Positions 24,579 to 58,141 of a stretch of DNA of 64,000 nucleotides are shown piece by piece. The stretch lies in assembly GCF_001190925.1 (NCBI RefSeq), contig NZ_CP011072.1, positions 1,426,001 through 1,490,000 of the forward strand, given 5' to 3'. Made by a program: the position numbers and the translations under genes. The first letter of the stretch is position 1; each line of letters begins with the position of its first letter. Origin of the DNA: Azoarcus sp. CIB. Lineage in GTDB: Bacteria; Pseudomonadota; Gammaproteobacteria; Burkholderiales; Rhodocyclaceae. Below the pieces are notes generated by a model. That model saw only the letters and a list, made by a program, of their open reading frames with translations, was not told the DNA's origin and did not search any database.

Positions 24579-24646
24579 CCTCTTCCTGTCGCCTGAACTC
24601 CGCACCCCTGCGGCCCGTCCGCCCCTGTCCTGTGTGCAGCTAAGGG

Positions 24647-26061: not shown

Positions 26062-26221
26062 CGCATGCCCCGACGAGGGGCTGCGTTGGTCTCCAGTTGA
26101 AAACGGTTGATTGGGCCGCAGGTCCGGCCCGCTTTCGTCGTCCGGTTTGCGCGGAGCGTGCGACTCCACCGCGTCGCGCCGATGACGAACGGGCCGGACT
26201 GGCTCAAGTCGCGCTGACCAT

Positions 26222-27607
26222 TTAGCGGGACAACTGGGCGACCGCCGCTCCGCCGACCGGAACGCGACGCTCGGCAAAGTAATCCTGCGTCAGTCTTGCG
26301 ACGATCGGGGACAGAAGCAGCAAGGAGATCAGGTTCGGGATGGCCATGAAGGCATTCAGCGTGTCGGCGACCAGCCACACGAAGTCGAGTTGCGTCACGG
26401 CGCCGACCAGAACAAAGATTGTCCAGAGCACGCGGTAGGGTTTTTCGACCGACGTGCCGATCAGGTACTCCCAGCACTTCTCGCCGTAGTACGCCCAGCC
26501 GAGGATGGTGGTGAAGGCGAAGATCGCCAGCGCGATGGCCAGGAACTGACCACCAAATCCCGGGAACGCGGTGACGAAGGCGCTCGAACTCAGTGCCGCG
26601 CCCTTGAGGCCGCTGCTCCAGACGCCGGTCACGATCAGCACCAGGCCGGTCATGGTGCACACGATGATGGTGTCGATGAAGGTGCCCATCATGCCCACCA
26701 GGCCGGACTCGACCGGGTTCCTGGTCTGGCCGGCCGCCTGCGCGATGCCCGCGGTGCCGAGACCGGCTTCGTTCGAGAAGATGCCGCGCGCCACGCCGTA
26801 GCGCATCGCCATCATCACCGCCGCACCGGCGAAACCGCCCGTTGCCGCCACCGGACTGAAGGCGCTCGAAAAGATCAGCGAAAAGGCCGCGGGAATCTGG
26901 TCGGCATAGATGCCAAGCACAGTCAGGGATGTGACGACATAACCGATGCACATGAACGGCACCAGTTTTTCCGCCACCGCGCCGATGCGCTTGACCCCGC
27001 CGAGCAGCACGACGCCGGTGAATACCGCCATCACGACACCGGACACCCACGGATCGATACCGAAACCGGCTTCCAGTGCACCGGCGATGCTGTTCGATTG
27101 GACCATGTTGCCGATACCGAAGCCGGCGAGGCCGCCGAACAGCGCGAACGCCGCGGCAAGCCAGCGCCAGTGGCGACCGAGGCCGTTCTTGATCGCGTAC
27201 ATCGGCCCGCCGACCTGCTCGCCGCGGTCATCGGTTTCGCGGTAATGCACCGCAAGCAGCACTTCGGCATACTTTGTGGCCATCCCGACGAGCGCTGTCA
27301 TCCACATCCAGAACATGGCGCCCGGCCCACCGACGGCGATGGCGGTGGCGACGCCGGCGATATTGCCAGTCCCGACCGTTGCCGCCAGGGCGGTCATGAG
27401 CGCTGCATAGGGCGTGATTTCACCCGGCGCGCCGGGTGCCGCCTTGCGTCCGCGCCAGACCATGACGAAGCCGGCGATGATCTTGGTCACCGGCATGAAC
27501 TTGAGGCGCAACTGCAGGAACAGGCCGGTACCAAGGATCGCGATCAGCATCGGCGGCCCCCACACGATGTCGTTGATCGCCGTGACGAACTGCGTAAGTG
27601 CTTCCAT
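26222..27607 (-). CDS. AGCS family sodium:alanine/amino-acid symporter
   Basis: 461-aa inner-membrane transporter with about 10-11 hydrophobic segments. The family signature region ALAATVGTGNIAGVATAIAVGGPGAMFWMW is followed by GGPMYAIKNGL and a long set of membrane helices; FSNEAGLGTAGIAQAA is also diagnostic. ATG 27607 has GGAG 8 nt upstream; an upstream in-frame ATG at 27682 lies beyond the sigma54 promoter and is excluded. It diverges from a TyrR-like enhancer-binding protein, suggesting induction by an aromatic or related amino acid (inference). Confidence 0.88.
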   Translation of the reverse strand: MEALTQFVTAINDIVWGPPMLIAILGTGLFLQLRLKFMPVTKIIAGFVMVWRGRKAAPGAPGEITPYAALMTALAATVGTGNIAGVATAIAVGGPGAMFWMWMTALVGMATKYAEVLLAVHYRETDDRGEQVGGPMYAIKNGLGRHWRWLAAAFALFGGLAGFGIGNMVQSNSIAGALEAGFGIDPWVSGVVMAVFTGVVLLGGVKRIGAVAEKLVPFMCIGYVVTSLTVLGIYADQIPAAFSLIFSSAFSPVAATGGFAGAAVMMAMRYGVARGIFSNEAGLGTAGIAQAAGQTRNPVESGLVGMMGTFIDTIIVCTMTGLVLIVTGVWSSGLKGAALSSSAFVTAFPGFGGQFLAIALAIFAFTTILGWAYYGEKCWEYLIGTSVEKPYRVLWTIFVLVGAVTQLDFVWLVADTLNAFMAIPNLISLLLLSPIVARLTQDYFAERRVPVGGAAVAQLSR

Positions 27608-27650
27608 CGGTTGTCTCCGTTGTTTGTGTGGACTTGAATCAAGGGTGCAT

Positions 27651-27666
27651 AGCAACGCCTGTGCCA
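27651..27666 (-). promoter_or_regulatory. Sigma54 (-24/-12) promoter of the AGCS symporter
   Basis: On the minus strand TGGCACAGGCGTTGCT reads as TGGCAC-N5-TTGCT, an excellent -24/-12 element. The predicted start is about 30 nt before the symporter ATG. The divergent gene encodes an activator with the GAFTGA sigma54-contact motif. Confidence 0.75.
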
Positions 27667-27791
27667 TCAAATAAAAGTCCATGAAAACATACTGTTATGC
27701 GTAGTCGTGCGTCCTGGGTGAATTCGTGCGTACGTAAATCAATACACAACCGGTGGGGCGGGGCGTAGTGTGGGAAAAAATTTCACGTAAT

Positions 27792-27811
27792 ATCAACAAC
27801 CTGTAGTTGAT
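27792..27811. promoter_or_regulatory. Inverted repeat, possible activator site for the sigma54 promoter
   Basis: ATCAAC (27792-27797) and GTTGAT (27806-27811) flank an 8-nt centre. The site lies about 130 bp upstream of the -24 element, a typical enhancer distance. Confidence 0.35.
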
Positions 27812-27829
27812 GTAGCGGTTCCGATACAC

Positions 27830-27847
27830 TGTTTCGATATCGATACA
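27830..27847. promoter_or_regulatory. TyrR-box-like palindrome before the regulator gene
   Basis: TGTTTCGATATCGATACA is palindromic except for one base pair and fits the TyrR/PhhR box layout TGT-N12-ACA. It ends 9 nt before the regulator start codon, so it could serve autorepression and also act as the upstream site for the symporter promoter. Confidence 0.5.
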
Positions 27848-27856
27848 GGAGCCTTG

Positions 27857-29386
27857 ATGCGCATTGCCATTGTCTTTGACGACCGGGTCGGCATTGCCCA
27901 TGAGATCCTGGCGGAACTCGCGCGGCGCTCGCTCAATGTCACGGCCGTCGAGGTCGAGCCACCGCACATCTACATCGAGGCCCCGGCGCTGGATCAAGCC
28001 GGACTCATCAAGTTGCGCAGCCAGTTGCTGCAGATCGCCGGTGTGCGCACCGTCGACGTCGTCGCCATGCTCCCCGGCGCGCAACGGCGCTTGTATCTGG
28101 ACGCCCTGCTGGCCTCGCAGGCCGATCCGGTGTTCGCCGTCGATGCGAAGGGGCGCGTGATCGTCGCCAACGGCGCCGCCGTCACGGCAAGCGGAATGTC
28201 CGAAGCCGAATTGCGGGCGAGCTCGATGCAGCAACTGATCGGCGATCCGGGACTGCTGGATGCGCTCGTCGACGGGGGTTACCACCTGCCGGTGCGCGAG
28301 ATTGATCTCAACGGCGAGCCGTACATGCTGGAGACTCTGCCCCTGCACGAAACGGGCGGTCGGGTGGCGGGTGCCGTGATGACCCTCCACGCCCCCACTC
28401 GCATGGGCGAACGCCTGAGCGCGCTGCAGAATTACGATGCGGGCGGTTTCGAAGCCATCCTCGGCAATTCGGCGGAGATCGACCTGCTCAAACAGCGCGC
28501 GGCGCGCATGGCGCTCGTCGATGCCCCGCTGCTGATCACCGGCGAAACCGGCACCGGCAAGGAGCTGCTCGCCCACGCGTGCCATGCCGGCAGCAGTCGC
28601 AGCGCCGAGCCTTTCTTTGCGCTGAACTGCGCCGCGCTTCCGGAGAACCTCGCCGAAAGCGAGCTGTTCGGCTATTCGCCGGGCGCCTTCACCGGCGCTT
28701 TGCGCGGCGGCAAACCCGGCCTGCTCGAACTGGCGGACGGGGGCACGGTGTTTCTCGACGAGATCGGCGAAATGTCGCCCTACCTGCAGGCCAAGCTGCT
28801 CCGCTTCCTCAACGACGGCAGCTTCCGGCGGGTCGGCGGCGATCGTGAAATCAAGGTGAACGTCCGCATCATCAGCGCCACCCACCGCGCGCTCGAAGAC
28901 ATGGTGGCCACCGGTCATTTTCGGCAGGATCTGCTCTTTCGACTGAATGTGCTGACGCTGCACATGCCGCCGTTGCGCGAACGGCCCGGCGATATCCTCC
29001 CGCTTGCCCAGTTCTTCCTGGCGCGCGCCTGCGCACAGGCGGGGCGCCCCTTGATGCGCCTGTCGTCGGCAGCGTGCGCCGCCTTGCTGGCGAGCACCTG
29101 GCCCGGCAATGTCAGACAGCTCCAGAACGTGATTTTCCGGACGGTGACGATGACCGAACGGCTCGTGATTGCCGCGGCCGACCTCGAGCTCGCCCACGCG
29201 GCGAACCCCGCGGGACGGGATGCGGACAGGGAAGTCACGACGCTTGACGAGGCTGTCGCGGGCTTCGAGAAGAACTTGCTGCAACACCTTTACCGCGATT
29301 TCCCTTCCAGCCGGCGACTTGCCAAGCGCCTTGGTGCGTCGCATTCGGCCATCGCCGCCCGCCTGCGCCGCTACGGCATTGGGTAG
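27857..29386 (+). CDS. TyrR/PhhR-type sigma54-dependent regulator (ACT-PAS-AAA+-HTH)
   Basis: 509 aa in the TyrR order: ACT-like domain (residues 1-70, FDDRVGIAHEILAELARRSLNV), PAS (about 80-160), AAA+ domain with GETGTGKE (~229), ESELFGYSPGAFTGA (GAFTGA 276-281, the sigma54-contact loop), the Walker B GGTVFLDEIGEM, and a C-terminal TyrR helix-turn-helix (SSRRLAKRLGASHSAIAARLRRYG). Unlike E. coli TyrR it keeps GAFTGA, so it should activate sigma54 promoters; one lies upstream of the divergent symporter. ATG 27857 has CAGGAG ~5 nt upstream. A truncated paralogue is at 40435. Confidence 0.9.
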   Translation: MRIAIVFDDRVGIAHEILAELARRSLNVTAVEVEPPHIYIEAPALDQAGLIKLRSQLLQIAGVRTVDVVAMLPGAQRRLYLDALLASQADPVFAVDAKGRVIVANGAAVTASGMSEAELRASSMQQLIGDPGLLDALVDGGYHLPVREIDLNGEPYMLETLPLHETGGRVAGAVMTLHAPTRMGERLSALQNYDAGGFEAILGNSAEIDLLKQRAARMALVDAPLLITGETGTGKELLAHACHAGSSRSAEPFFALNCAALPENLAESELFGYSPGAFTGALRGGKPGLLELADGGTVFLDEIGEMSPYLQAKLLRFLNDGSFRRVGGDREIKVNVRIISATHRALEDMVATGHFRQDLLFRLNVLTLHMPPLRERPGDILPLAQFFLARACAQAGRPLMRLSSAACAALLASTWPGNVRQLQNVIFRTVTMTERLVIAAADLELAHAANPAGRDADREVTTLDEAVAGFEKNLLQHLYRDFPSSRRLAKRLGASHSAIAARLRRYGIG

Positions 29387-29484
29387 TAGTCCAACGGACT
29401 GCTGGCGCGATTTTTTTGTGCTATGCCACATAAACGGCGTGCCTCGTCGTGTGAAGGTCTCCGCCCGCCGGAAGGAGAGCACGT

Positions 29485-30300
29485 ATGTCGCATCCGTTCG
29501 ACCCAGGCTATGTCGCCGAACCCTTCCTGACGCTCTGCTCGGACTACCCCGGGGTGGATGTCTATCCGTCCGACCAGTTCCGAACCGAGTGGGGGCCGAT
29601 CTTCCATCGCGGACGGCTCGACGGCACCGCCCGCATCCTTGTCATCGGTCAGGACCCCGCGCAGCACGAAACGGTCATCCGCCGCATCATGGTCGGCGAG
29701 GCCGGACGGCGCGTGCAGGGCCTGCTGCGCAAGCTCGGCGTCACGCGAAGCTACGTGTTCATCAACACTTACCTCTACAGCGTCTATGGCAGCGTCAAGG
29801 CCCGCACGCGCAAGGATCCGCGGCTCGTCGATTACCGTAACCGCTGGTTCCACGCCCTGCTGAGCGGCGGCCGCATCGAGGTGGTGCTGGCATTCGGCCG
29901 CGTAGCCGACGAGGCGTGGCGTTTCTGGAAGGCGACCCCGGCGGGCGAGTCGATCGAAGTCGGCTATGCGGCACTGACCCACCCCACGCAGCCGGAAAGC
30001 GCCTCGGATGGCAACAGGGCAAAGTTGGCGGAAGCGACCACGGCGTTGCTGCGCAACTGGAACAAGGCCCTGCTGGCGGTCGCGCCGCGCGTGCAGCACC
30101 CGGACGGGCCGACGCCGCTGGTTCTGTACGGCGAAGCCTGGGCGGGGGAGGACCGCATCGGTATCCCCGAATTCGATTTCCCCGCCGGGTTGCCCGCCTG
30201 GATGCGCGAACAGGACGGCTGGGCGCGGCGCGTCGGTCCCGACGATCTCGCCAAGCGGCGCAACATCACGATCAGGATTCCCAAGGGAGTCGTCACATGA
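29485..30300 (+). CDS. Uracil-DNA glycosylase superfamily-like protein
   Basis: 271-aa soluble protein. LVIGQDPAQHETVIRRIMVG at ~52-71 resembles UDG motif 1 (GQDP plus an acidic residue), INTYLYSVYG follows where the superfamily has its base-binding strand, LAFGRVADEAW fits the central strand, and LTHPTQPE stands at the place of the HPS/P motif. It could excise damaged bases or be a non-canonical family member; the motif differences mean the substrate is open. Its last codon overlaps the next gene by 4 nt (ATGA), so both are made together. GGAG precedes ATG 29485. Confidence 0.65.
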   Translation: MSHPFDPGYVAEPFLTLCSDYPGVDVYPSDQFRTEWGPIFHRGRLDGTARILVIGQDPAQHETVIRRIMVGEAGRRVQGLLRKLGVTRSYVFINTYLYSVYGSVKARTRKDPRLVDYRNRWFHALLSGGRIEVVLAFGRVADEAWRFWKATPAGESIEVGYAALTHPTQPESASDGNRAKLAEATTALLRNWNKALLAVAPRVQHPDGPTPLVLYGEAWAGEDRIGIPEFDFPAGLPAWMREQDGWARRVGPDDLAKRRNITIRIPKGVVT

Positions 30301-32063
30301 CCGGCATCCCGCGGCGCTGGTATCCGCTCGCCGGAACCGAGCCGCCCCCTTCCGCCCGCGCGCCGATGCCGGTCGCAAGGGGAGCAGGGCCGATCGACCT
30401 CCCGACCGGCCCGAAAGTCGCGCTCGCCGGTCGCGTCGTGACGATGGACGACGCATTTACGGTCAGGGCGAACGCCATTGTCTACATCGACTGCGGCGCC
30501 ATCGTCGCCGTGCAGGACCGCGCCCAGCCCGCACCGGCCGGTTTCGACGGCGTCGCGCCTGTCGCCACGCGCGGCACGCTCTATCCGGGCCTGATCGAAC
30601 TGCACAACCACCTCGCCTACAACGCGCTGCCGTTATGGGCGCCGGTGCCCAGGCGTTTCCAGCATCGCGGCCAGTGGCCCGATCATCCCGACTATCGCCG
30701 GCTGATCAGCGGTCCGATGACCGTCGTCGGCAGCTACCGCGACGCCGAAGGCAAAGCCGCGCTGCTCGCGCCGCTCGTGCGCTACGTCGAGTGCAAGTGC
30801 CTGCTCGGCGGGGTGACGACCAGCCAGGGGATCATGCTCAACAGCAACGCTGGCATACGGCGCTACTACCGCGGCCTGCTGCGCAATGTCGAGCAGACCG
30901 ACGACCCCGAGCTGCCAGAAGCGCAGGCGCGCATCCCCGACATCGATGCCCGCGATGCCGCCTGGTTCCTGGCCCGGCTCAACAAGGAAGACAGCTGCTT
31001 CCTCCTTCATGTCAGCGAAGGCGTGACCCCGCCGGATACGCCCGACTCCATCGCCCGCCGCCATTTCCTCGCGCTCCAGGTCGCGCCCGACCTATGGGCC
31101 ATCAACGACCGCCTCGCCGCCATCCACGCGGCCGGCCTCCTGCCGGAAGACTTCGAAGTGCTCGGGCGGCATGGGGGTGCGATGGTCTGGTCGCCCTTCA
31201 GCAACCTCCTGCTGTACGGCGCGACCGCCGACGTGAAGGCTGCCCGCCAGGCGAACGTGCGCATCGGCCTAGGCAGCGACTGGTCCCCCTCGGGCAGCAA
31301 GAACCTGATGGGCGAACTGAAGGTCGCGTGGCTCTATTCCCGGCACATGCTCGATGGCCTCTTCGACGCGCGCGACCTCGTCGCGATGGCGACGCGCGAA
31401 GCTGCCGCGATCCTCAAGTGGGACAAGGCGCTCGGCACGCTGGAGCCCGGCAGGCGCGCCGATCTCCTCGTCATCGACGGCACGGCCGGCGACCCCTACG
31501 AAGCGCTCGTGAAGGCGAAGGAGACGTCGATCCGGCTCGTCATGGTCAATGGCCTTGCCCGCTACGGCACACCCGGCATGATGCGCGCGCTCGGCGCCGA
31601 GGGCGAAAGGCTGCGCGTCGGCGGCAGGCTCCGCTGCCTGAACCTGACCCTGACGCAGCCAACGGCCGATCCCGATGTCGCCGCCGTGTCGCTGAAACAA
31701 GCCTGCCGCAGCCTGCGAGCCGCCTTCCGCAACCTGCCCGCCCTCGCGCGTGAAGTCGAAACGCCGAGGCCGCGGAACGCCCTGCGGAGCGCGTCCGAAC
31801 CCGTCGTCTGGTCACTCGCCCTCGACGAAATCGAGGCCACGGACATCAACCTCCGCCCGCGCCTGCCATTCAGCGGCCCCGACGACTTCACCGGCCCCGA
31901 CCGCATCTCCCCACGCGCCGCCGCGGCGCCCCTGTCGACGATCCTCCAGCCCATCGCCCTCGATCCGCTCACCGTCGCGGACGACCCCAATTTCCTGGCG
32001 GAGATCGCGAATCAACCCAACGTGCCGGAGGCGGTCCGTACGGGGCTGGCGGCTCTCTATTGA
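30297..32063 (+). CDS. Amidohydrolase family protein with C-terminal extension
   Basis: 588 aa. The metal-dependent hydrolase core runs from the composite beta-sandwich start (VALAGRVVTMDDAF) through ELHNHLAYNA (His103-x-His105), LLHVSEG, and the metal-binding Asp in LGSDWSPSGSKN, to GRRADLLVIDGT. This is the chlorohydrolase/cytosine-deaminase-like subgroup. Beyond residue ~440 there is a ~145-residue extension of unknown role. It is translationally coupled to the UDG-like gene (4-nt overlap), which suggests action on bases or nucleosides (inference). A decayed copy of its 3' end lies at 32974-33051. Confidence 0.8.
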   Translation: MTGIPRRWYPLAGTEPPPSARAPMPVARGAGPIDLPTGPKVALAGRVVTMDDAFTVRANAIVYIDCGAIVAVQDRAQPAPAGFDGVAPVATRGTLYPGLIELHNHLAYNALPLWAPVPRRFQHRGQWPDHPDYRRLISGPMTVVGSYRDAEGKAALLAPLVRYVECKCLLGGVTTSQGIMLNSNAGIRRYYRGLLRNVEQTDDPELPEAQARIPDIDARDAAWFLARLNKEDSCFLLHVSEGVTPPDTPDSIARRHFLALQVAPDLWAINDRLAAIHAAGLLPEDFEVLGRHGGAMVWSPFSNLLLYGATADVKAARQANVRIGLGSDWSPSGSKNLMGELKVAWLYSRHMLDGLFDARDLVAMATREAAAILKWDKALGTLEPGRRADLLVIDGTAGDPYEALVKAKETSIRLVMVNGLARYGTPGMMRALGAEGERLRVGGRLRCLNLTLTQPTADPDVAAVSLKQACRSLRAAFRNLPALAREVETPRPRNALRSASEPVVWSLALDEIEATDINLRPRLPFSGPDDFTGPDRISPRAAAAPLSTILQPIALDPLTVADDPNFLAEIANQPNVPEAVRTGLAALY

Positions 32064-32206
32064 TGGGGGAGGCGAGCCGAATACGCACGTCGGCGCTTCG
32101 AGCCCATCGTGCTTGAGCCGATCTGTGGCCCAGCGTACAGACTCGTTCCATCACGGCGAATATGCTCGCGGACGTAGTGACAGACAACTGTTCAATGGAG
32201 TTCTCC

Positions 32207-32440
32207 ATGGCGAAATGCGACGCGTGCGGCAATGACTACGACAAGTCTTTTCAAGTGGTGGCGCAGGGGAAGACCCATACCTTCGACAGCTTTGAATGCG
32301 CGATTCATACGCTCGCACCGAAATGCGCGCATTGTGGCGTGCGCATCATCGGGCACGGCCTGGAGAAGGGCGACCGGATGTTCTGCTGCGATCACTGCGC
32401 TGAAGGCGCTGGTGTGACCGAACTACGCGACCGCGCCTGA
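32207..32440 (+). CDS. Small zinc-ribbon protein
   Basis: 77 aa with CDACG, a lone FECAIHTL, CAHCG and FCCDHCAEG, together forming one or two Cys4 zinc sites. The pattern resembles short prokaryotic metallothionein/zinc-ribbon hypotheticals. ATG 32207 is 6 nt after GGAG; ATG 32162 and 32195 are in-frame alternatives with poorer spacing. It lies between the amidohydrolase and the CBS gene, about 55 nt before the latter. Confidence 0.65.
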   Translation: MAKCDACGNDYDKSFQVVAQGKTHTFDSFECAIHTLAPKCAHCGVRIIGHGLEKGDRMFCCDHCAEGAGVTELRDRA

Positions 32441-32494
32441 TCATCACGCAAGTGAGGCGCTTTCATCGAAAGACTAGATGCCAGGAGAATGAAC

Positions 32495-32911
32495 ATGCAC
32501 CAGTTACGAGACCTCATGAGTCGCGACGTCAAGGTCATCAATCCCGACATGACCATCAGGCAGGCCGCAGCAACCATGCGCGATGAGGGCTTCGGCATGA
32601 TGCCGGTTGGGGAAAACGATCGCATGATTGGAACGATCTCGGATCGGGACATCGCGATACGCGCTGTCGCCGAGGGTAAGGACTCCAGCACCAAGGTTCG
32701 CGATGTAATGTCCGACGGCGTTGCGTGGGCCTTCGAGGACGAATCAGTCGACCAGGCCGTCAAGATCATGAGCGAGCGCCAAGTCAGGCGTCTGCCGATC
32801 GTTGACCGGGAAAAGCGATTGGTGGGAATCGTGTCGCTCGGCGATTTTGCGGTCCAGCGTACCGAAATCAAGCCCGCTGCCGAAGCGCTTGCCGAAATTT
32901 CCAAACCATAA
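32495..32911 (+). CDS. CBS-domain-pair protein
   Basis: 138 aa made of two CBS repeats: LMSRDVKVINPDMTIRQAAATM to ISDRDIAIRAV, then VMSDGVAWAFEDESVDQAVKIM to IVSLGDFAV. Probably an AMP/ATP- or SAM-type ligand sensor. ATG 32495 is 7 nt after CAGGAG; ATG 32489 is too close to the ribosome site. It is diverged from the CBS protein at 25627. Confidence 0.82.
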   Translation: MHQLRDLMSRDVKVINPDMTIRQAAATMRDEGFGMMPVGENDRMIGTISDRDIAIRAVAEGKDSSTKVRDVMSDGVAWAFEDESVDQAVKIMSERQVRRLPIVDREKRLVGIVSLGDFAVQRTEIKPAAEALAEISKP

Positions 32912-32973
32912 CGCGACCAGGCCAAAACACGACGCGGGACGGAAATAGGGGGCAGGGACGGAAACAGGGGCCA

Positions 32974-33051
32974 CTCACCGTGGCGGACGATCGGGATTTC
33001 CTCGCGGACTAGCGGAACTCTATTGATGGCGGAGGCGAGCCGAATACACAC
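32974..33051 (+). pseudogene. Decayed duplicate of the amidohydrolase 3' end
   Basis: This stretch matches the end of the amidohydrolase gene and its downstream flank (31968-32088). CTCACCGT-GCGGACGA and TTTCCT-GCGGA align first, then an internal block of about 45 nt is missing, then CTCTATTGATG-GGAGGCGAG and CCGAATAC-CAC align, including the stop codon. It is preceded by a short repeat (GGGACGGAAA-AGGGG, two units, 32937-32970). It is a remnant of a second copy. Confidence 0.7.
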
Positions 33052-33060
33052 TCCGTCCCG

Positions 33061-33498
33061 ATGAGACCTGATTGCAATACAGTCATGGAAGGCATGAATC
33101 CCTATCCCCTCCGACAGCTGCCCGGCAGCGACCTGCGCAAGGCGCTGGAATCGGCCGTCAGCGAGCAACCCGGCGGCCCGGCCGTCGTCCTCTCCGGCAT
33201 CGGCAGCCTGATCGACGCAAAACTCCGCTTCGCCGGCCACCACACCGCAACGAGCATCCCCGGCCCGTCCGAAATCCTCACGCTTGCCGGCAGCCTCGCG
33301 GAAAATGGCGCGCATCTGCACATGTCCATCTCGACGCCCGACGGGCGGGTCATCGGCGGACACGTCGTCTATGGGAACACGGTGCGAACGACTGCCGAGG
33401 TCTTGCTGGCCCCATTGCCGGGTTGGGTGCTCCAGCGCGAACCGTACGCTTCGACGGGGTATGACGAACTGGTGGTTCGCCGGCGCGTCGAGGAGTGA
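33061..33498 (+). CDS. PPC (DUF296) domain DNA-binding-like protein
   Basis: Up to 145 aa, essentially one PPC/DUF296 domain: YPLRQLPGSDLRKALE, PAVVLSGIGSLIDAKLRFA, PSEILTLAGSLAENGAHLHMSISTPDGRVIGGHVV and AEVLLAPLPGW. Bacterial members are trimeric, with unclear function. Start choice is uncertain: ATG 33061, 33085 and 33094 are all in frame and none has a well-spaced ribosome site; homologues usually begin near MNPYPL (33094). Last gene before the lower-GC RADAR locus. Confidence 0.75.
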   Translation: MRPDCNTVMEGMNPYPLRQLPGSDLRKALESAVSEQPGGPAVVLSGIGSLIDAKLRFAGHHTATSIPGPSEILTLAGSLAENGAHLHMSISTPDGRVIGGHVVYGNTVRTTAEVLLAPLPGWVLQREPYASTGYDELVVRRRVEE

Positions 33499-33987
33499 CG
33501 CATGGTGGAGCTGTCAATCGGTCGACAGCAAGGTGACTATGGCTCTTCCCATCTTCCGTGATCCTTGTGTCGAGGGCTGAAGGCAGCCGCGACTAGTCCT
33601 TGCTCGTTTGCTCAAGCCGTTCACCGGCCGGCGGGTCCGACCATGTTGCTGCCGCTCGTGAATGCGCAGCCTCCGTCGAGTCATCGGCCTGTGCCGACGG
33701 TCAGCGCGAGGCTTCAGCGGGCACCACAGGCAGGTTACGGGCGCCAGTCTTGAACTCGCACTTCCGGCCACAACCGGCCGGCGAATTTCTCTCCCCAACG
33801 GTCATTCGAGAGGCTGCTTCGCTCTGAAACCTGCCGGATCGCCTACGGTAGCAGCTTCGCCGCAGCAGTCTTTCTACAGCTGGGTGAATTATTTTGCGGC
33901 TTATCGGCTCGTTTTTGCGCTTCATCTCACTATTTCATACGCGCAACGCATTAAAATCCTAAAATTCACCTTACCAGCCAGTACACC
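33499..33987. other. Gene-poor left flank of the RADAR locus
   Basis: 489 nt without a supported gene. The last ~110 nt are clearly AT-richer (runs near 33885-33965) and should hold the rdrA promoter; TAAAAT (33952-33957) could be a -10, but I see no good -35. The middle (33760-33860) resembles non-coding accessory spacer sequence. Confidence 0.35.
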
Positions 33988-36732
33988 GTGACCGATAACT
34001 CCAAGCTCTATATCAGCACCACCCAGCAGGAAACGGCCAGCCTGCCCCACCCGAACACCCTACTGGCCCGGGAGGTCTATGATCGCTTGTACACCCTCAT
34101 CCATGAGGCACAGCGGGAAGCCAGCAAAGCACTGAATGAACCAGACCAGGATTTCGACAGCCGGCGGACCCACAATGCCGTACTGATTGACGGCGCTCGC
34201 GGCACCGGCAAGTCAACGGTACTGGTCAATCTGCCCGCCTACCTAAAGCAGCGAGCGAATGCGTCCCACGACCCGAACCAAGGATTGCCTGAAGTCCAGC
34301 GCAGCCGAGTACGGCAGAACAAGGATTTGCTGGCACGAGTGCACATTCTGAAGCCGGTGGATCCCACCCTGCTGGAAGAACATGACGATCTGTTCCTGCA
34401 CGTGATTGTCGCGGCTGTGCTCAGCGACAGCCAAGTACAGCAAGCCCAGCGCAACGAGTCCAATTACCGCGCAATGCTGCGGGCGCTTGAGGAGCTGGCG
34501 CACGGGCTGGAAAGCGTGGATGCACAAAAGGAAGAGCGCGGGCTGGACAAGCTGCGCAGCTTTATCGGTCACCGGCAGCTCAATAGCAAGGTGCACGCAT
34601 TTTTTGGCAGTGTGCTGACACTGCTGGGCAAAGACTTGCTGGTGCTGACCATTGACGATGTCGACACCTCGCTCGACCGGGCATATGAAAACCTGGAAAT
34701 CGTGCGCCGCTATCTGAACACCCCGCTGGTGTTGCCTATCATCAGCGGCGACCTGGATCTGTATACCGAAGTGATCTGGCGCGAGTTTCACGGCAAGATC
34801 GTCAAGCCCACGCCGAAATATGAAGAAGATCAGGCCAGAAATTTGGCAATCGCACTGGCAAGCGAATACCAGCGCAAAATCCTGCCAGTGACCAACCGCC
34901 TACGCATGCCCGATATTGCCGAATACCTGTGCGATTTTCAAATCGAGCTGCGCAGTCCCAGCGACGAGCAGGGAGGTCAACCGATAGCCTCACTCGGCGC
35001 CTTCCATGCCTGGCTGGAGTGGTTTATTGCCGGCCCGGTCAATGAGCAGGAAAACAGCAGACTTGCGCTGCCCATCCCGTCGATCAGGGCGTTAACACAA
35101 CTGATCCGGCGCTGTGGCCAAGACCGCCTGCTTGAAGTGATGCCAGGAGAGCTGAGCCAAGCACAAAGTGCTCTAGTCGCCAAGCGTATCGGGCAACTGG
35201 CGCCGGGCATTCGTCATGAACTGGTCGACCGATTTGCCGCCGAATATGCTAATGCCACACTAGCCAAAGACCGCGACTTCCGTCCCGCGTACAAGGCCTT
35301 TGCCGACGCATGGGAACTGGAAAAGAAGGGCCATAGCAATGCTGGCAGAGGGATCAGTCCGCACAACACACTGCAATTGAGCCAAAGGCTGCGCGAGCAA
35401 TTCGGCAGCGAATGGGAAGCTGGCCCGACTTGCCTTGTGCTGGAGGCCATACAGCACTGGTATGGTGCAAGCTCGTTCGGCGGCAGCATCCTGGCTACCG
35501 CCTTGTTCCTGCCACTAAGCCATGCCGATGCCGCCTATAAAGACTTCAACAAACCGGACTCACTGGCAAGCTGGAGGAGCGCATTGGTCAACCAACTTCC
35601 CGGCTATTGGCTGGAGGTAATGGGCCACCGGGAGGTGCTGCTGCCCTACCCGCTACCAGAGAGTGGGCGCTGGGGCCGGCTTAACTGGAATGTCACAAAG
35701 TCTGTCAAAGAGCCACAACATCGGTTGCTAATGAAGCTGCTGACTCATCTTAACTATTACAGCGAGTCCGGCCGAGGCACCAAAGTAAATATCGGCCGCC
35801 TGTTCGAGCTGCTAGTTACCAGTCTGGTGCGCGACGTGTCGGCACTGGATTTGGTCAATCTCCTCAATCGAGCGCCGTTCCATTCCACCAGCACGCTGGC
35901 CCCCACCAAAACCCAGAGCACTGCCCAAAATGAAAATAATGAGGATGGAGAAACAGCAGAAGCCGACCTGGATGAACCGCCGATCGATGCCATCAATACG
36001 CTGGTCAATGAAATCCAAGCTTGGCGCAATGAGCACCAGCTAGAGCAGGTGCGTTTCTCACCGTGGCTGGTGTACAACGTGTTCAACAAAGTGTTCAATC
36101 AGGCGCAACTGTTCAACCGCAACCAGCGGATTGAATCCACCGACCTCTATCCCAAGGCTGCCCTCCAGATTGGCCTGCACGCCTTTTACAGCATCTGGTC
36201 GGCCAGCGGCAGCTTTGAAAAGGGGGCCGTGTTCGGTCTGCCGGCCAGTATTGCGACTGTGAACCTGGAGAGGCCTAGCAACTTCGAACAAAACGCCTTG
36301 TTCCGGCAGAACATCCTGCCTTTCTTCCCGCAAGGCGGGATTATTGAGAAAAGCGATGTTGCCAAGTACGGCATGGCGATGCGCGCGCTGACCTATTACC
36401 TTGGAAATCATCCTTTGAGGGAGTGGCTAGAAAAAGCAGTCAATACCCAAGGAAATGTTGATGAACGTACTGCAACAATTGCGACCACCACAACTAACGA
36501 ATTAGCCCCGAACGAACGTGCCAATCGACACCTTCGCAAATTGCTGAAGCTTCCCACCAATACAGCTAATGTAATGCGCAAGAAACTGGAGGCCAGTTTG
36601 CAGTCGCTCTCAGTAGATGAAGCCCAACAAGTCCTCAATGAAATGCATGATCAATATCCTGAAACGGAAGCATTGCGCCGACTGGAAGAAGCCTATGGAA
36701 AGGTTGTCGCTAATTCGTCGCGCGAATCCTGA
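33988..36732 (+). CDS. rdrA: RADAR anti-phage system NTPase RdrA
   Basis: 914-aa P-loop NTPase. Walker A is GARGTGKST (residues 69-77), Walker B LLVLTIDDVD (217-226), followed by a sensor-like LPIISGDLDLY (249-259); the long helical C-terminal part fits RdrA. In known RADAR systems RdrA forms rings that stack on an RdrB shell and are needed for deaminase-based phage defence. It overlaps rdrB by one base (TGATG). The start is GTG 33988 and no Shine-Dalgarno is visible. GC is visibly lower than in neighbours, especially near the 3' end, indicating transfer. The identification rests on the RdrB partner, gene order and length. Confidence 0.88.
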   Translation: MTDNSKLYISTTQQETASLPHPNTLLAREVYDRLYTLIHEAQREASKALNEPDQDFDSRRTHNAVLIDGARGTGKSTVLVNLPAYLKQRANASHDPNQGLPEVQRSRVRQNKDLLARVHILKPVDPTLLEEHDDLFLHVIVAAVLSDSQVQQAQRNESNYRAMLRALEELAHGLESVDAQKEERGLDKLRSFIGHRQLNSKVHAFFGSVLTLLGKDLLVLTIDDVDTSLDRAYENLEIVRRYLNTPLVLPIISGDLDLYTEVIWREFHGKIVKPTPKYEEDQARNLAIALASEYQRKILPVTNRLRMPDIAEYLCDFQIELRSPSDEQGGQPIASLGAFHAWLEWFIAGPVNEQENSRLALPIPSIRALTQLIRRCGQDRLLEVMPGELSQAQSALVAKRIGQLAPGIRHELVDRFAAEYANATLAKDRDFRPAYKAFADAWELEKKGHSNAGRGISPHNTLQLSQRLREQFGSEWEAGPTCLVLEAIQHWYGASSFGGSILATALFLPLSHADAAYKDFNKPDSLASWRSALVNQLPGYWLEVMGHREVLLPYPLPESGRWGRLNWNVTKSVKEPQHRLLMKLLTHLNYYSESGRGTKVNIGRLFELLVTSLVRDVSALDLVNLLNRAPFHSTSTLAPTKTQSTAQNENNEDGETAEADLDEPPIDAINTLVNEIQAWRNEHQLEQVRFSPWLVYNVFNKVFNQAQLFNRNQRIESTDLYPKAALQIGLHAFYSIWSASGSFEKGAVFGLPASIATVNLERPSNFEQNALFRQNILPFFPQGGIIEKSDVAKYGMAMRALTYYLGNHPLREWLEKAVNTQGNVDERTATIATTTTNELAPNERANRHLRKLLKLPTNTANVMRKKLEASLQSLSVDEAQQVLNEMHDQYPETEALRRLEEAYGKVVANSSRES

Positions 36733-39530
36733 TGCTCGAACGCTCCCTTCTTGAACTGGTCGGCGGGCAATACTTTTCCAGTGCGGGTCTGGCGAAGACG
36801 CTACTGGACTATCTCACCTGCACACCAGCTGCCAGCTGGGCTCCCGATTCGCTGACATCGCTACGCAAAGACTGCCGCGAAGCACTACTGTGCAGCATAG
36901 AGCAGGACCGCCCCCGACAGTTCCGCCGGGATGACCTGCGCCGGCTGACCGAAATGCTGACCAAGGAGTCGTTGTTTGTCAGTGGCGAACTGCCGCTGCT
37001 GGAGAAACTGTCCAACGAACTGCTGGTGCGGCATGGCGATTACCTGCACTACCGTGATACCGAGGTGCAGGCCTACGCCCGGCTGGCGGTTGATCTAGAC
37101 CCAGCGCTGTTGGCTGCCTGGCATTTAACCGGCTGGCTTGATGCATTGCCGGTACCCGGTGCCGACGCCATTTGCCGCGTACTCGACCACCAGACGCCGC
37201 TGTTTGCCCCGCTCCCCAACCCGGCGATGCCGCATGCCGAGGGACATGTGCACTTGGGTGGTGTGAGTGCCGCTGGGCTGATTCTGAGCGGGCAGTTGCT
37301 GGGCACACTGAAAACGAGCGAGAAGGAACATAAGGTGCTGCTGCGGCTGCGCCGCGTGCTGGGTGAGCTGCTGGGTTGGGCGCCCGCGGGCAGCAACTGG
37401 CTGACCGGCTCGGAAACCACTGACTGGCAAGCCCGTCTGCGCCAGGCCTGCCGCGACGAACCTAATCTGTCAGGTAAAGGTGATTCGTTGCCGGACTGGG
37501 ATCTTCTCGCAAAACATCATGCGCTCGCGGTGGCAGGTTCGCCGGAATGGCTGCTGGCTGAGCTGGCGCGGCGCGCCCTTGGGGCGGGCGGGTTGGAGCA
37601 TTGCTGGCTGTGGTTACTGGTGTTTCTACTGCGGCGTTACCGCGAGCCCGATACCCCGTCGTCGCTGCGCGTAGCCATCCTGTACCTGCTGAGTGAAACC
37701 ATGCAGCTGCGCCGCCTGCTGATCATGGACAACTTGGGCTTGACCCGCTTTGCCAAGGATTATTTCCCTAGGGCGTTGCGCAAAACAGCAACAAACCGAC
37801 ACTCTCGCTTCGCCAACCTGCGCCATCTGCTGGCCAGCCCAAATGATCTGTTGGAGGCCAAAGGCAGCCCAGAAGTCTTTGGCCCCGAGAGTGTTGCCGA
37901 ACTCGCCCAGCAACTCGGCCGCACTCTGGGCCAGCCGCTCCGCCCCCGGCTAGCGTTGACGACGGTTCCGCCCAGCCCCCCGGGGGCAGCTGAGCTGGGC
38001 TACCTGCGCGCACTGGAGCAATGGCAGTTCTGCGCACACTTTTCCCGCTCTGCTGACAAGGATGGTGAGGACGGCCAGCGGCGTGCGCCGGACATGGCCA
38101 AGCGGTGGCAGCAAGGCGAAAAGCTGCAGCAAAGCCTGCAGCGCACCGCCGGCTGGAATCGCCCTGAATTTCTTGGCGGCCGGCTAAATCCGTATTTCCG
38201 CTTTGAGCCGGCGCGCTGGCTGCGCGGACTGGACGTAGCCGGCAATGAAAACGATCTGCGGATCGAGTGGTTTGCCCCGCTGCTCCGTTGGCTGCGATTG
38301 GGGCTGAAGCCACATGGCCCGGACGCGCAACCCCGCAGCGGCTTTCACCTGAGCATTCATGCAGGTGAAGACTACGCCCACCCGCTCTCTGGCCTGCGTC
38401 ATGTGGACGAAACAGTTCGCTTTTGCGAGATGCGCGACGGCGACCGGCTGGGCCACGCGCTGGCGCTGGGTATCAAGCCCAAGCGCTGGGTGGCGCAACA
38501 CGGCGATATGGTACTGCCGGTGGACGAACATTTAGACAATCTGGTCTGGGCCTGGCACCACGCCACCCTGCTCAGCCGGCGCCTGCCGCTCGCCGGGCAG
38601 GTGCTTCCGCTTCTGGAGCAGCGCATCCGGCGTATGCAGCGCTATGGCGCCTGGCTGCACCCCCTGGAAATCAACCCCCGGCCGCGAGCTACGACCTCCG
38701 CGACAACCTATGCCCCGGCCGGTACGAGGAAGGAACATGAAAATCTGCGGCACTGGGTAAGCCCGCCCGACTGGCGTATCACCCCGGAATTGCTGCTCCA
38801 GGCCTGGCTGCTGCGCCGCAATTGCCATTACCGCCTGAGCAAGATCGGCGCGAACCCGGTACTGGGAGCAAAGGAACAGCACGCGGTGCCCGATTTGGCG
38901 CGGCTGCAACATGCAGGCACAGATACTGAAGACTGGACGCCGGAGACGCTGTATCGGCGGCGCCACGCGCACCTGGCTCTCGGCAATGCCTCGCCATTTC
39001 TGGTGGTGGTGCGCGAGCAGCCCAACGATCGCTGCCACGCCGAACTGGATCGCGCGCCGGAAGAGCCGAACGAGGCGCTGCTGTACGACAGCGATAGTCC
39101 GGAAGAACTGCGCTTCATGCATGCGTTGCAGGATTATCTGTTGCACGAGTATGACCGCAAGGGCCTGATCATTGAGACCAACCCGACCTCAAATGTTTAC
39201 ATCGCCCGGGTCGGCAAGCACAGTGAGCACCCGATCTTCCGCTGGAACCCGCCCGACGAATCCACACTGGCCTTCGGTGGCCGGCACAACCGCCACGGCC
39301 TGCGCAGCGGTCCGATTCGTGTTCTCGTGAATACCGACGACCCTGGCATCATGCCCACCACACTGCGTACCGAATTTGCGCTGCTGCGCGAAGCCGCCAT
39401 CGAGCGCGGCATCGCCCGCACGGTGGCTGAGGATTGGCTGGAGCGTCTGCGTCGCTATGGCGTGGAGCAATTTCATCGTCACCACCAGCCAGTATTCACG
39501 CTGGAAGCGGCCGATGAGCTGTTCACATGA
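36732..39530 (+). CDS. rdrB: RADAR adenosine-deaminase-family protein RdrB
   Basis: 932-aa protein with a split adenosine-deaminase core. AEGHVHLGG gives the metal pair His172-x-His174, LSIHAGEDYAHPLSGLRHVDE carries the ADA-type His543 and Glu546 (HAGE), RLGHALALGI follows, and NTDDPGIMPT has Asp869-Asp870. All expected zinc and catalytic positions look intact. RADAR RdrB deaminates adenosine in RNA and/or adenine nucleotides during infection, arresting the phage or cell. It starts one base inside rdrA (TGATG), implying fixed stoichiometry. No third RADAR accessory gene follows; 506 nt of non-coding DNA does. Confidence 0.9.
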   Translation: MLERSLLELVGGQYFSSAGLAKTLLDYLTCTPAASWAPDSLTSLRKDCREALLCSIEQDRPRQFRRDDLRRLTEMLTKESLFVSGELPLLEKLSNELLVRHGDYLHYRDTEVQAYARLAVDLDPALLAAWHLTGWLDALPVPGADAICRVLDHQTPLFAPLPNPAMPHAEGHVHLGGVSAAGLILSGQLLGTLKTSEKEHKVLLRLRRVLGELLGWAPAGSNWLTGSETTDWQARLRQACRDEPNLSGKGDSLPDWDLLAKHHALAVAGSPEWLLAELARRALGAGGLEHCWLWLLVFLLRRYREPDTPSSLRVAILYLLSETMQLRRLLIMDNLGLTRFAKDYFPRALRKTATNRHSRFANLRHLLASPNDLLEAKGSPEVFGPESVAELAQQLGRTLGQPLRPRLALTTVPPSPPGAAELGYLRALEQWQFCAHFSRSADKDGEDGQRRAPDMAKRWQQGEKLQQSLQRTAGWNRPEFLGGRLNPYFRFEPARWLRGLDVAGNENDLRIEWFAPLLRWLRLGLKPHGPDAQPRSGFHLSIHAGEDYAHPLSGLRHVDETVRFCEMRDGDRLGHALALGIKPKRWVAQHGDMVLPVDEHLDNLVWAWHHATLLSRRLPLAGQVLPLLEQRIRRMQRYGAWLHPLEINPRPRATTSATTYAPAGTRKEHENLRHWVSPPDWRITPELLLQAWLLRRNCHYRLSKIGANPVLGAKEQHAVPDLARLQHAGTDTEDWTPETLYRRRHAHLALGNASPFLVVVREQPNDRCHAELDRAPEEPNEALLYDSDSPEELRFMHALQDYLLHEYDRKGLIIETNPTSNVYIARVGKHSEHPIFRWNPPDESTLAFGGRHNRHGLRSGPIRVLVNTDDPGIMPTTLRTEFALLREAAIERGIARTVAEDWLERLRRYGVEQFHRHHQPVFTLEAADELFT

Positions 39531-40036
39531 CATACACTTCAGATGGTCCGAAATTCAGGCAAGAGCTGTCGTTGCGTTCTGCTCAGCAGTAAGGCGGCTT
39601 TGGGCGAGGGTTTATCAGCGACGGGTCACCGGAAACGACAGCTGTGCTCGGCTTCCTGACTTTCGAACAATGACTCATCATCCGGCAGCTTGGGGTCCGG
39701 TCCGGCTGTAGCCCGACATGACAAGCGGTCAATGAGCTCCCTCAGCGCCTGAACGGCAGGTGAGCGTCGCATTGCCGCCCGACACGCATCAGGCCAACTG
39801 CTGGCCAGGCCGACGACCTGTAGTTCATGGAAGGTCCACCGGTTAAATCCGCATCAGAAACCTGCCGTGCAGGTCGTTCACGTCGTGCAGGGCTGGATTG
39901 CTGCGGTGGGTCGACAACGGGCTACGGACCAACCTGAAAAGATCGGGCCTGTTTGATAGCGTCGGACCATGACATGATTCGCTTGCAGATCCCGCGGGAT
40001 CTGGCGTATCACACGACGTGATTCAGCCGTTCTTCC
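39531..40036. other. Gene-poor right flank of the RADAR locus
   Basis: 506 nt without a supported gene. It contains a perfect 10-bp inverted repeat, AGCTGTCGTT (39564-39573) and AACGACAGCT (39634-39643), 60 nt apart, beginning 33 nt after the rdrB stop. It may be a processed 3' structure or an old element end. Confidence 0.4.
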
Positions 40037-40402
40037 ATGACACTCGACGGAGATCCCTTGAATACTTGCGTACCAAATGCCAGCCGAAAGTCGCAAATCG
40101 ATGAAGTTCTTCTTAAGCTTCCTGGCGTCAGAGCAAGGAAGATCAGCGGACTTGACGCCTACTTTGTCGACGACAAGATGTTCGCCTGCATAAGCGGCAC
40201 CGGCGTCGGACTACGCGTGCCTGCCACCACCGCGATCGAGTTGCAGTTCTCAAGGGGCGACGTCGTCCCATTTCAACCCGGAGGCATGGCAAGTTCGAGG
40301 GAATGGATTCAAATCGACCGGGCCGACGCGGCAGACTACGAGCAAGATATTGAACTGTTCCGCGCCTCGCTTGAGTTCGTGAAGGGCGCGCGGACGCGGT
40401 AA
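40037..40402 (+). CDS. TfoX N-terminal-like domain protein
   Basis: Up to 121 aa. The pattern GLDAYFVDDKMFACISGTGVGLRVP followed by DVVPFQPGGMASSREWIQID and a helical end fits the TfoX_N/YjbR-like fold, small proteins of unclear function sometimes linked to competence regulation. ATG 40037 gives the full length; TTG 40058 has GGAG 5 nt upstream and may be the true start. It lies between the RADAR flank and a tyrR remnant, so it belongs to the rearranged segment. Confidence 0.65.
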   Translation: MTLDGDPLNTCVPNASRKSQIDEVLLKLPGVRARKISGLDAYFVDDKMFACISGTGVGLRVPATTAIELQFSRGDVVPFQPGGMASSREWIQIDRADAADYEQDIELFRASLEFVKGARTR

Positions 40403-40434
40403 TTTACCGGCCCCGCAGGGGGAGTAGCGGCTTT

Positions 40435-40705
40435 CGACAGCTGGAACGTGATCTTCCGCGCCGTGACGATGTCGGAACGGCTGGTGATCGGCGCCGACGA
40501 CCTGGAACTTGCGCAAGCGTCAAACCCCGCCGTGCAAGGCATGACCGGAGAAGTCACGACGCTTGAACAGGCGGTCGCCGACTTCGAGAAGAACCTGTTG
40601 CAGCGCCTGTATGGCGACTTTCCGTCCAGCCGGCGACTGGCCAAGCGGCTCGGCGCCTCGCACTCGGCAATTGCCGCCCGCCTGCGTCGCTACGGGATCT
40701 GCTGA
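40435..40705 (+). pseudogene. C-terminal remnant of a TyrR-type regulator
   Basis: It reads nearly the same as the last ~90 residues of the intact regulator at 27857-29386: NVIFRAVTMSERLVIGADDLELAQASNP, then EVTTLEQAVADFEKNLLQ and SSRRLAKRLGASHSAIAARLRRYG. The upstream AAA+, PAS and ACT parts are missing. At the left edge a 2-base loss relative to the intact gene (CGACAGCTGG-AACGTG) shifts the frame. A helix-turn-helix fragment could still be made from an internal start but probably is not functional. Confidence 0.85.
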
Positions 40706-40777
40706 TGCAGCTGGCGCACACGGGCGAGAACCGGACAATTCCGATTCGGAATCCGCACGGTTTTCACGGCCGTGCCG

Positions 40778-41731
40778 TTATGGTTGCACTGCCCGGGTAT
40801 CCGTCGTCTCCGCATCCGCGGTCAGCATCTGCGCAATGTCCGGATCGCGGCTGAACGCTTCCGAAAAGTAGTTCACGAAACTGTTCACCTTCAGCGACGG
40901 CCGCCGGGCTGGCTGGAAGACGACGTTCAGGGGCAGGGGAGGCGCGCGGTAGCGGGTGAGGATGGGTTTGACGCGGCCGGCGCGCAGGTCGTCGCCGAAA
41001 ACCCAGATTGGTGAGTAGCTGATGCCGAGCCCTTCGCAGACGGCCTGGCGGATGGCTTCGGAGCTGTTGGACTGGAAGTTGCCGTCGACGCGGACGGTGT
41101 GCAGCCGGTCGTCGGCGTCGAGGTAGGACCACTCGTTGATGGCCGTGAGGCCCGTGTAGACGAGGCAGTTGTGCCGCGGCAGCTCATCGAGGCGTTGCGG
41201 CTCGCCGTGCCGCTCAAGATAGGCGGGGGAGGCGAGGGTGGCGCGATGGGCTGAGCCGATGCGACGGGCGATCAGTCGGCTGTCCTTGAGTTCGCCGACG
41301 CGGAAGGCGACGTCGATGCCGGCCGCGACCAGGTCGACGAAGCCGTCGTCGAGTTGCAGGTGGAGCTTGATCTTCGGATGGCGCGCATAGAAGGCCGCCA
41401 GGCGGGGCACGATGTGCAGGCGGCCGAAGGCGACGGGGGCGGCGACGCGCAGGACGCCGGAGATCTCGTGCTCCACGCGGTGCACCTCGAGATGCGCTTC
41501 TTCCAGCGTGTCGAGCACCTGCCGGCAGCGCTCGTAGTAGAGCTGGCCCGCTTCGGTGAGCGAGTGGCTGCGCGAGGAGCGGACGAGGAGGGGTGCGCCG
41601 ACGAGCTTTTCGAGGGCCTGCACCTGCTTGCTGACGGCCGACTGTGTGGTGTGCGCTTCGCGCGCGACGGCCGAGAAATTGCCCGTCTCGACGACGCGGA
41701 CGAAGGTCTCCATCAGGCGCATGCGATCCAT
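40778..41731 (-). CDS. LysR family transcriptional regulator
   Basis: 317 aa, with an N-terminal winged helix-turn-helix (METFVRVVETGNFSAVAREAHTTQSAVSKQVQALEKLVG) and a periplasmic-binding-like effector domain. CAGGAG precedes ATG 41731. It diverges from an old-yellow-enzyme gene; a palindrome in the 144-nt gap (41745-41761) is a likely target. The inducer is probably an electrophile or quinone reduced by the neighbouring enzyme (inference). Confidence 0.92.
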   Translation of the reverse strand: MDRMRLMETFVRVVETGNFSAVAREAHTTQSAVSKQVQALEKLVGAPLLVRSSRSHSLTEAGQLYYERCRQVLDTLEEAHLEVHRVEHEISGVLRVAAPVAFGRLHIVPRLAAFYARHPKIKLHLQLDDGFVDLVAAGIDVAFRVGELKDSRLIARRIGSAHRATLASPAYLERHGEPQRLDELPRHNCLVYTGLTAINEWSYLDADDRLHTVRVDGNFQSNSSEAIRQAVCEGLGISYSPIWVFGDDLRAGRVKPILTRYRAPPLPLNVVFQPARRPSLKVNSFVNYFSEAFSRDPDIAQMLTADAETTDTRAVQP

Positions 41732-41744
41732 GGCGGCTCCTGAC

Positions 41745-41761
41745 TATTCCTGTTGGGAATA
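41745..41761. promoter_or_regulatory. LysR-type palindrome
   Basis: TATTCCTGTTGGGAATA has 6-bp arms (TATTCC/GGAATA) around TGTTG and fits the T-N11-A LysR pattern. It sits 14 nt from the lysR start and 115 nt from the reductase start. Confidence 0.55.
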
Positions 41762-41875
41762 GATGCTATCACCGATTCGGGCTACTCCATTGGATCAGGC
41801 ATGGACATAATCGTGGCAAGTCGATCAGGCGACTGATCCCGTTCCCGATTGCGATTCACGAAGGAAGCCCGACCC

Positions 41876-42976
41876 ATGAACACTACCCGCAAGCTTTTCC
41901 AGCCCGCCCGCATCGGCGACATCGAGGTCGCCAACCGCGTCGTGATGGCGCCGCTGACGCGCAGCCGCGCCGACGAGGCCGCCGGCGACATCCCCGGCAG
42001 CACGATGAACGTCGAGTACTACCGCCAGCGCAGCAACGCGGGCCTGATCATCAGCGAGGGCACGCAGGTATCGCCGGTGGGCAAGGGCTACATGGCGACG
42101 CCGGGCATCTATTCGGATGCGCAGGTCGAGGGCTGGAAGGCGATCACGCAGGCGGTACACGAAGCCGGCTCGAAGATCGTCGCGCAGATCTGGCACGTCG
42201 GGCGCATCACGCACCCGGACCTCACGGGTGGTGCCCAGCCGGTTGGCCCGTCGGCGGTGAAGCCCAAGGTCGTGGCCTACACGCACAACGGCAAGGTCGA
42301 GGTGCCGGAACCGCGAGCGTTGAGCGTCGAGGAGATCGCCGAGGTCGTGCAGGAATTCCGGCGTGCCGCCGCGAACGCGATCCGCGCGGGCTTCGACGGC
42401 GTAGAGATCCACGGCGCCAACGGCTATCTGGTCGATCAGTTCCTGCGCGATGGCGCGAACCGGCGCACCGACCAGTACGGCGGCTCGGTGGAGAACCGTA
42501 CCCGCTTCGCGCTCGAAGTGATCGACGCGGTGATCGCCGAGGTCGGCGCGGGCCGCGTCGGCATCCGCCTGTCGCCGGTCACCCCCGCGAACGACCTGTC
42601 CGACAGCAACCCGCAGGCGGTGTTCGGCCATCTCGTCGAGGAATTGAACAAGCGCGGCATCGCGTTCATCCATTTCGTGGAAGGCGCCACCGGCGGTCCG
42701 CGCGACGTACCGGGCTTCGACTTCGCATGGGCGCGCCGGACGTTCAAGGGCACCTACATCGCCAACAACGGCTACGACGGTGCGATGGCGGTCGAGGCCG
42801 TGGAATCGGGCCGGGCCGATGCGGTGGCTTTCGGCCGGCTGTTCATCGCGAATCCCGACCTGGTGCCGCGCCTGAAGCGCAATGCGCCGCTCAACACGCC
42901 GAACCCGAAGACCTTCTACGCGCCCGGACCGGAAGGCTATATCGACTACCCGGCGTTGGAGGCGGTCGCGGCGTAA
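41876..42976 (+). CDS. Old yellow enzyme family alkene reductase (NemA-like)
   Basis: 366-aa FMN-dependent ene-reductase acting on N-ethylmaleimide-type alkenes, nitrate esters or quinones. VVMAPLTRSRA, IWHVGRITHPD, the active-site HGANGYLVDQFLRDGANRRTDQYGG and GRLFIANPDLV are all family blocks; the His-x2-Asn substrate pair is intact. ATG 41876 is 8 nt after AAGGAAG. Probably induced by the divergent LysR protein. Confidence 0.92.
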   Translation: MNTTRKLFQPARIGDIEVANRVVMAPLTRSRADEAAGDIPGSTMNVEYYRQRSNAGLIISEGTQVSPVGKGYMATPGIYSDAQVEGWKAITQAVHEAGSKIVAQIWHVGRITHPDLTGGAQPVGPSAVKPKVVAYTHNGKVEVPEPRALSVEEIAEVVQEFRRAAANAIRAGFDGVEIHGANGYLVDQFLRDGANRRTDQYGGSVENRTRFALEVIDAVIAEVGAGRVGIRLSPVTPANDLSDSNPQAVFGHLVEELNKRGIAFIHFVEGATGGPRDVPGFDFAWARRTFKGTYIANNGYDGAMAVEAVESGRADAVAFGRLFIANPDLVPRLKRNAPLNTPNPKTFYAPGPEGYIDYPALEAVAA

Positions 42977-58134: not shown

Positions 58135-58141
58135 CATCGAC

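Follow-up and report, generated by a model that had tools for sequence, protein, structure and literature searches.

RADAR defence systems are built on two genes, rdrA and rdrB, and the published subtypes comprise rdrAB, rdrABC and rdrABCD (PMC7699616). In one survey RADAR was reported in 270 of about 38,000 genomes (PMC9994260), and given this rarity each intact divergent copy is of help. The E. coli and Citrobacter rodentium (C. rodentium) systems are the points of reference. According to PMC9994260, infected cells carrying either of them accumulate ITP and dITP, and purified E. coli RdrB converts ATP and dATP in vitro but does not act on a reported hairpin RNA target. The same source describes the functional roles of the catalytic residues of E. 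coli RdrA and RdrB, and reports that charge swaps at the RdrA crown residues K150, E151 and R162 weakened defence. The architecture against which we compare our locus is an RdrA heptamer docked on an RdrB dodecamer. Here, we describe a RADAR gene pair in a stretch of 64,000 nucleotides from Azoarcus sp. CIB, hereafter the window. As the kind of system is already known, the locus adds one member to RADAR; what is new is its genomic context, i.e. a slot that is filled with other defence genes in related species.

Gene pair, family assignment and catalytic residues

The rdrA gene (33988..36732, forward strand) starts with GTG and encodes an ATPase of 914 aa, and rdrB (36732..39530, forward strand) encodes an adenosine deaminase of 932 aa. 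One base is common to both reading frames, in a TGATG stop-start overlap (36730..36734, forward strand). These coordinates and the overlap agree with the initial annotation, which had been made from the letters alone and had proposed RADAR. The profile search suggested there matched both proteins far beyond chance. RdrA was found by PADLOC with E 2.9e-254 and scored 720.4 bits against the NCBIfam equivalog NF041743 (cut-off 600), and RdrB scored 1042.6 bits in PADLOC and 884.8 bits against NF041744 (cut-off 800); in PADLOC the RADAR profiles were the top matches by a wide margin for both proteins. Pfam provided AAA-type and A_deaminase matches only, all of them sub-threshold. Since both proteins exceed the RdrA and RdrB equivalog cut-offs and are top matches in PADLOC, the objection considered in the initial annotation, i.e. 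no significant match to these profiles or a better match to another deaminase–NTPase family, fails. With rdrA and rdrB found in tandem, the arrangement by which RADAR is recognised, the assignment as rdrAB is borne out, and the locus can be regarded as a genuine RADAR system that is probably functional.

Related loci were collected in a scan of a genome collection with short peptide patterns from RdrB, a procedure that finds close relatives only and is no census. Nine loci were confirmed out of 13 candidate stretches, in Enterobacter, Rahnella, a Laribacter MAG, Kosakonia, Pluralibacter, Pseudomonas, Zoogloea, a Rhodocyclales MAG and Silvania, with RdrB identities of 46–82%. A one-base overlap of rdrA and rdrB is present in six of the seven relatives in which both genes are readable. 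The exception is Zoogloea dura (L033), with a four-base overlap and rdrA split in two. These two overlapping ORFs (L033:2643-5437) may reflect a sequencing error, a natural split or decay. The RdrA alignment comprises six of the nine loci, as L029 and L034 are without rdrA and L033, with rdrA in two ORFs, was left out. The RdrB alignment comprises eight of the nine, leaving out the 214-aa fragment of L034.

Alignment to E. coli RdrA (PDB 8fnt and 8hr7) shows Walker A, Walker B and sensor 1 to be intact. Walker A spans residues 69–77 (34192..34218, forward strand), where K75 stands opposite E. coli K82 in the profile alignment and the motif is invariant in the RdrA alignment. The Walker B residues D223 and D224 (34654..34659, forward strand) stand opposite E. 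coli D221 and D222, and the sensor 1 residue D255 (34750..34752, forward strand) opposite D253. The earlier claim of intact Walker motifs is thus correct. As to sensor 2 (E. coli R377), the profile alignment stops at E. coli residue 312, and R367 is an invariant candidate in the RdrA alignment. Conversely, most of the E. coli crown residues are not kept. In both alignments E151 falls on a gap and R162 is replaced by histidine, and K150 falls on a gap in one alignment and at an arginine position in the other.

In RdrB, the motifs HxH, HAGED, GDRLGH and DDPG are all intact. The metal-binding HxH motif, H172-V-H174 (37245..37253, forward strand), is kept in all rows of the alignment that cover the site (8 of 9); it lies outside the stretches aligned with E. 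coli RdrB and is recognised by motif only (AEGHVHLGG). HAGED (38358..38372, forward strand) provides H543 and the catalytic E546, opposite E. coli H498 and E501, H575 (38454..38456, forward strand) stands opposite H530, and NTDDPG (residues 867–872; 39330..39347, forward strand) aligns with DDPG in E. coli RdrB. The histidine tetrad and the catalytic glutamate are hence present, with H543, E546 and H575 assigned by alignment to 8fnv and H172 and H174 by motif. The three motifs quoted in the initial annotation, AEGHVHLGG, HAGED and NTDDPG, were all found, and its metal ligands are intact.

The AlphaFold models, with 9 and 7 sequences, were poor (pLDDT 56.1 and 40.8). A Foldseek search with the poor RdrB model gave five matches at E < 0.001 with TM values of 0.21–0.26, two of them to chains of E. 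coli RdrB and three to chains of RdrB length in the RdrA–RdrB complex. This result is consistent with membership in the RdrB family and is silent on assembly.

Moreover, rdrB is under purifying selection in comparison with its closest relative, the rdrB of the Laribacter MAG (L029): over 681 codons dN is 0.10 and dS 0.51, resulting in a dN/dS of 0.20 that reflects all the time since divergence from L029 and not the time in the present host alone. In the remaining five comparisons dS was at least 1.9 or saturated; no relative is close enough to provide a usable dN/dS for rdrA.

The form of the system was addressed by scanning the ORFs around the gene pair, with neighbouring genes chosen by a longest-ORF rule and not by a gene finder. 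A 109-aa ORF that overlaps the start of rdrA (33662-33991) was rejected as a third gene, given its flat GC content over the three codon positions (0.573, 0.573 and 0.555), unlike that of rdrA (0.625, 0.398 and 0.650), and given that PADLOC, Pfam and NCBIfam returned no match. Downstream of rdrB, the heuristic list holds no gene in 39531-40036, and the program-made ORF list has a mechanical 111-aa ORF that overlaps the end of rdrB (39376-39711). Searches of five neighbouring ORFs with PADLOC, Pfam and NCBIfam revealed no match to a Csx27-like or SLATT-like accessory gene. For the ORFs scanned around rdrAB the initial statement that no accessory third gene is present therefore holds, and the system in the window would, as far as tested, be of the stand-alone rdrAB form.

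Base composition, distribution and a variable slot

The GC content of rdrAB was compared with that of sliding windows of 5543 bp (234 in total, 189 without overlap with the gene pair). At 0.596, rdrAB is the lowest stretch of its length, as the non-overlapping windows have a mean of 0.659, a standard deviation of 0.020 and a minimum of 0.609. The initial annotation had described the base composition as much lower in GC than either side. This is correct for the pair as a whole, albeit the dip lies in rdrA (0.558) and in the non-coding flanks (0.581 in the 489 bp before rdrA and 0.585 in the 506 bp after rdrB) more than in rdrB (0.633). The windows with the lowest GC content start at 31.5–32.8 kb. 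At third codon positions rdrA has a GC content of 0.650 and rdrB one of 0.725, the third and eighth lowest of 41 heuristic ORFs, some of which are in wrong frames. Elsewhere, a further dip at 57001-59006 (0.567 at 58–59 kb) adjoins a tRNA-Thr gene, and the window has no other tRNA gene.

RdrB was found in three of 101 genomes searched, with that of the window counted, and in none of 16 other genomes of the genus. A family model of RdrB matched 12 of 398 genomes of the phylum, again with the own genome counted, and none of 14 control genomes. Carriage by phages or plasmids was considered and rejected. RdrB matched none of 50,697 phage records; on the plasmid side seven of 72,556 records matched, all of them below 60% identity and with less than 80% of the query covered. 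The proposal of transfer is backed by base composition, and more strongly by the patchy occurrence within the genus together with the variable slot described below.

The slot (33706..39688, no strand assigned), which lies between a PCC-domain gene and a TfoX-like gene, is delimited by flank breakpoints and by its cargo in relatives: it holds RADAR here, DRT8 in genome G016 and BovA in genome G001. G016 and G001 match the upstream flank at 94% identity as far as window positions 33705 and 33689, and the match of a third genome, G013, ends earlier, at 32935. On the downstream side, similarity to G016 and G001 is regained at 39689-39769 and near 39937, and in G016 both flanks are on one contig. 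In the cargo of G016 (L076:9457-14015), two inverted copies of a 121-bp repeat enclose 4.3 kb with a reverse transcriptase of DRT type 8 (PADLOC Drt8, E 7.8e-133), a 288-aa ORF without match and a sub-threshold integrase remnant. By eye, the 288-aa ORF has a nuclease-like stretch at its end. BovA (PADLOC, E 7.7e-153) was identified in G001 on the contig that has the upstream flank, and the cargo there (L081:564-5283) lies all on one strand: BovA, a membrane-like ORF, an MBL-fold gene of the PADLOC candidate family PDC-M48B and an ORF weakly similar to RAMA. An ORF resembling an IS3-type transposase was also noticed by eye on the BovA contig.

A repeat of 106–121 bp bounds the slot in relatives. 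It occurs in four of 17 genomes of the genus, in which it is limited to this site and the rearranged version of it. Sequence comparison with the relatives places one copy in the window (33586..33705, forward strand). G001 has two copies on two separate contigs, and G003 a single copy in a rearranged setting, which adjoins an ORF of the phage integrase family and has apparently ordinary genes past the other breakpoint. No integrase remnant was recognisable in the window. Because the same slot holds RADAR, DRT8 or BovA in different species, we regard the site as a small, well-bounded defence hotspot, as indicated by sequence comparison across three species, and as a place to look for further defence systems. 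A bolder, and rather improbable, reading is that the inverted 106–121-bp repeats act in this genus as the ends between which cassettes are exchanged. Entire defence systems (RADAR, DRT8 and BovA) would then be swapped between copies by homologous recombination or by small integrase genes, remnants of which are found next to the repeat.

Some further features of the surroundings should be noted. The stretch downstream of rdrB at 39689-39821 matches many genomes, and by eye its reverse strand resembles the remnant of a LysR-type gene. Rfam gave no match in 29000-42000. A block matching window 24640-29386 sits between TfoX-like and LysR genes in G016 and G001 and upstream of the slot in the window, where a stretch at 40436-40713 matches the 3' end of the regulator gene of that block. 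The position of the block and this leftover point to local rearrangement around the slot.

Proposed function and alternative explanations

Taken together, the locus is very likely an rdrAB RADAR system of the stand-alone form, located in a chromosomal defence hotspot, with infection-triggered conversion of (d)ATP into (d)ITP as the most likely activity. The two genes are probably transcribed together, with their translation coupled. By analogy with E. coli and C. rodentium RADAR, from which assembly, nucleotide substrate, infection response and activity in the host are transferred, RdrA would form an ATPase ring that responds to infection and docks on the deaminase shell of RdrB. The shell would convert ATP and dATP to ITP and dITP, and phage replication would stop. 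The initial annotation had left the choice between RNA editing and nucleotide depletion open, and published work favours the conversion of (d)ATP to (d)ITP. That RADAR defends chiefly by editing adenosines in RNA, rather than by converting free nucleotides, draws on the A-to-G signatures in RNA reported with C. rodentium RADAR (PMC7699616, PMC9994260). Still, the action of E. coli RdrB on ATP and dATP but not on hairpin RNA and the ITP and dITP that pile up in infected RADAR cells, both cited above from PMC9994260, make this very unlikely, while the sequence of the window itself separates neither activity from the other.

A weightier concern, albeit also improbable, is that a RADAR system intact in sequence is silent or inactive in its host, as recently acquired cargo. 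The atypical composition of rdrAB and the rearranged slot would fit, as would the promoter scan, in which the one sigma-70-like match lies inside rdrA, with none upstream of it. Promoter and terminator scans alike gave nothing above shuffled sequences. However, the promoter scan covers sigma-70-like promoters and is blind to other types. Both frames are full length with their catalytic residues kept, and the dN/dS of rdrB argues for a maintained function, although over all the history since the ancestor shared with L029. Conversely, a metabolic deaminase–NTPase pair that merely resembles RADAR can be put aside almost entirely. Much of both proteins is little similar to E. coli RADAR, as such a pair would have it, yet both equivalog cut-offs are exceeded, the distribution is patchy, and defence genes occupy the same slot in relatives and lie beside some of the RADAR relatives.

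Comparison with known RADAR systems

Among the related loci, those of Enterobacter sp. BIGb0383 (L027) and Rahnella inusitata (L028) share 68% identity in RdrA and 67–71% in RdrB with the window, and have the one-base overlap too. Their gene pairs have a GC content of 0.47 and 0.43, much below that of rdrAB in the window. A SIR2/ThsA-like ORF was observed downstream of RADAR in the Rahnella locus (L028:6457-7254). The rdrB of L029 is a fragment with 82% amino-acid identity over residues 239–932 and a GC content of 0.62, and its DNA similarity to the window stops 13 bases past the rdrB stop.

The loci of Kosakonia (L030), Pluralibacter (L031) and Silvania (L035) are more distant, with 46–47% identity in RdrB and the same one-base overlap. 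In contrast to the window, they have a membrane-like gene of 245 aa after rdrB (L030:12715-13452, L031:6766-7503 and L035:12757-13494), which is likewise absent from L027 and L028, where other neighbours are found instead. It begins 12 bases past the last base of rdrB, and the three copies are 64–83% identical. No Pfam match above cut-off was obtained for the copies of L030 and L031, and PADLOC gave one weak partial match (L030). This gene of three Enterobacterales loci is a possible clade-specific RADAR partner. Gabija gajA and gajB follow downstream of RADAR and the 245-aa gene in Pluralibacter (L031:8062-11971).

E. coli RADAR (PDB 8fnt, 8fnv, 8fnw, 8hr7 and others) has the same rdrA–rdrB tandem as the window, as well as Walker A/B, sensor 1, HAGED and GDRLGH. 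In sequence, the two systems match only in the ATPase part (E 8.4e-8) and in two stretches of the deaminase (E 3.4e-20). RdrB of the window is longer, with 932 aa compared to 798–799 in the solved E. coli chains, and RdrA differs at the crown residues. With its longer RdrB and changed crown residues, this branch could therefore be used to test if the ring-on-shell contact known from E. coli RADAR is kept by shape rather than by residue.
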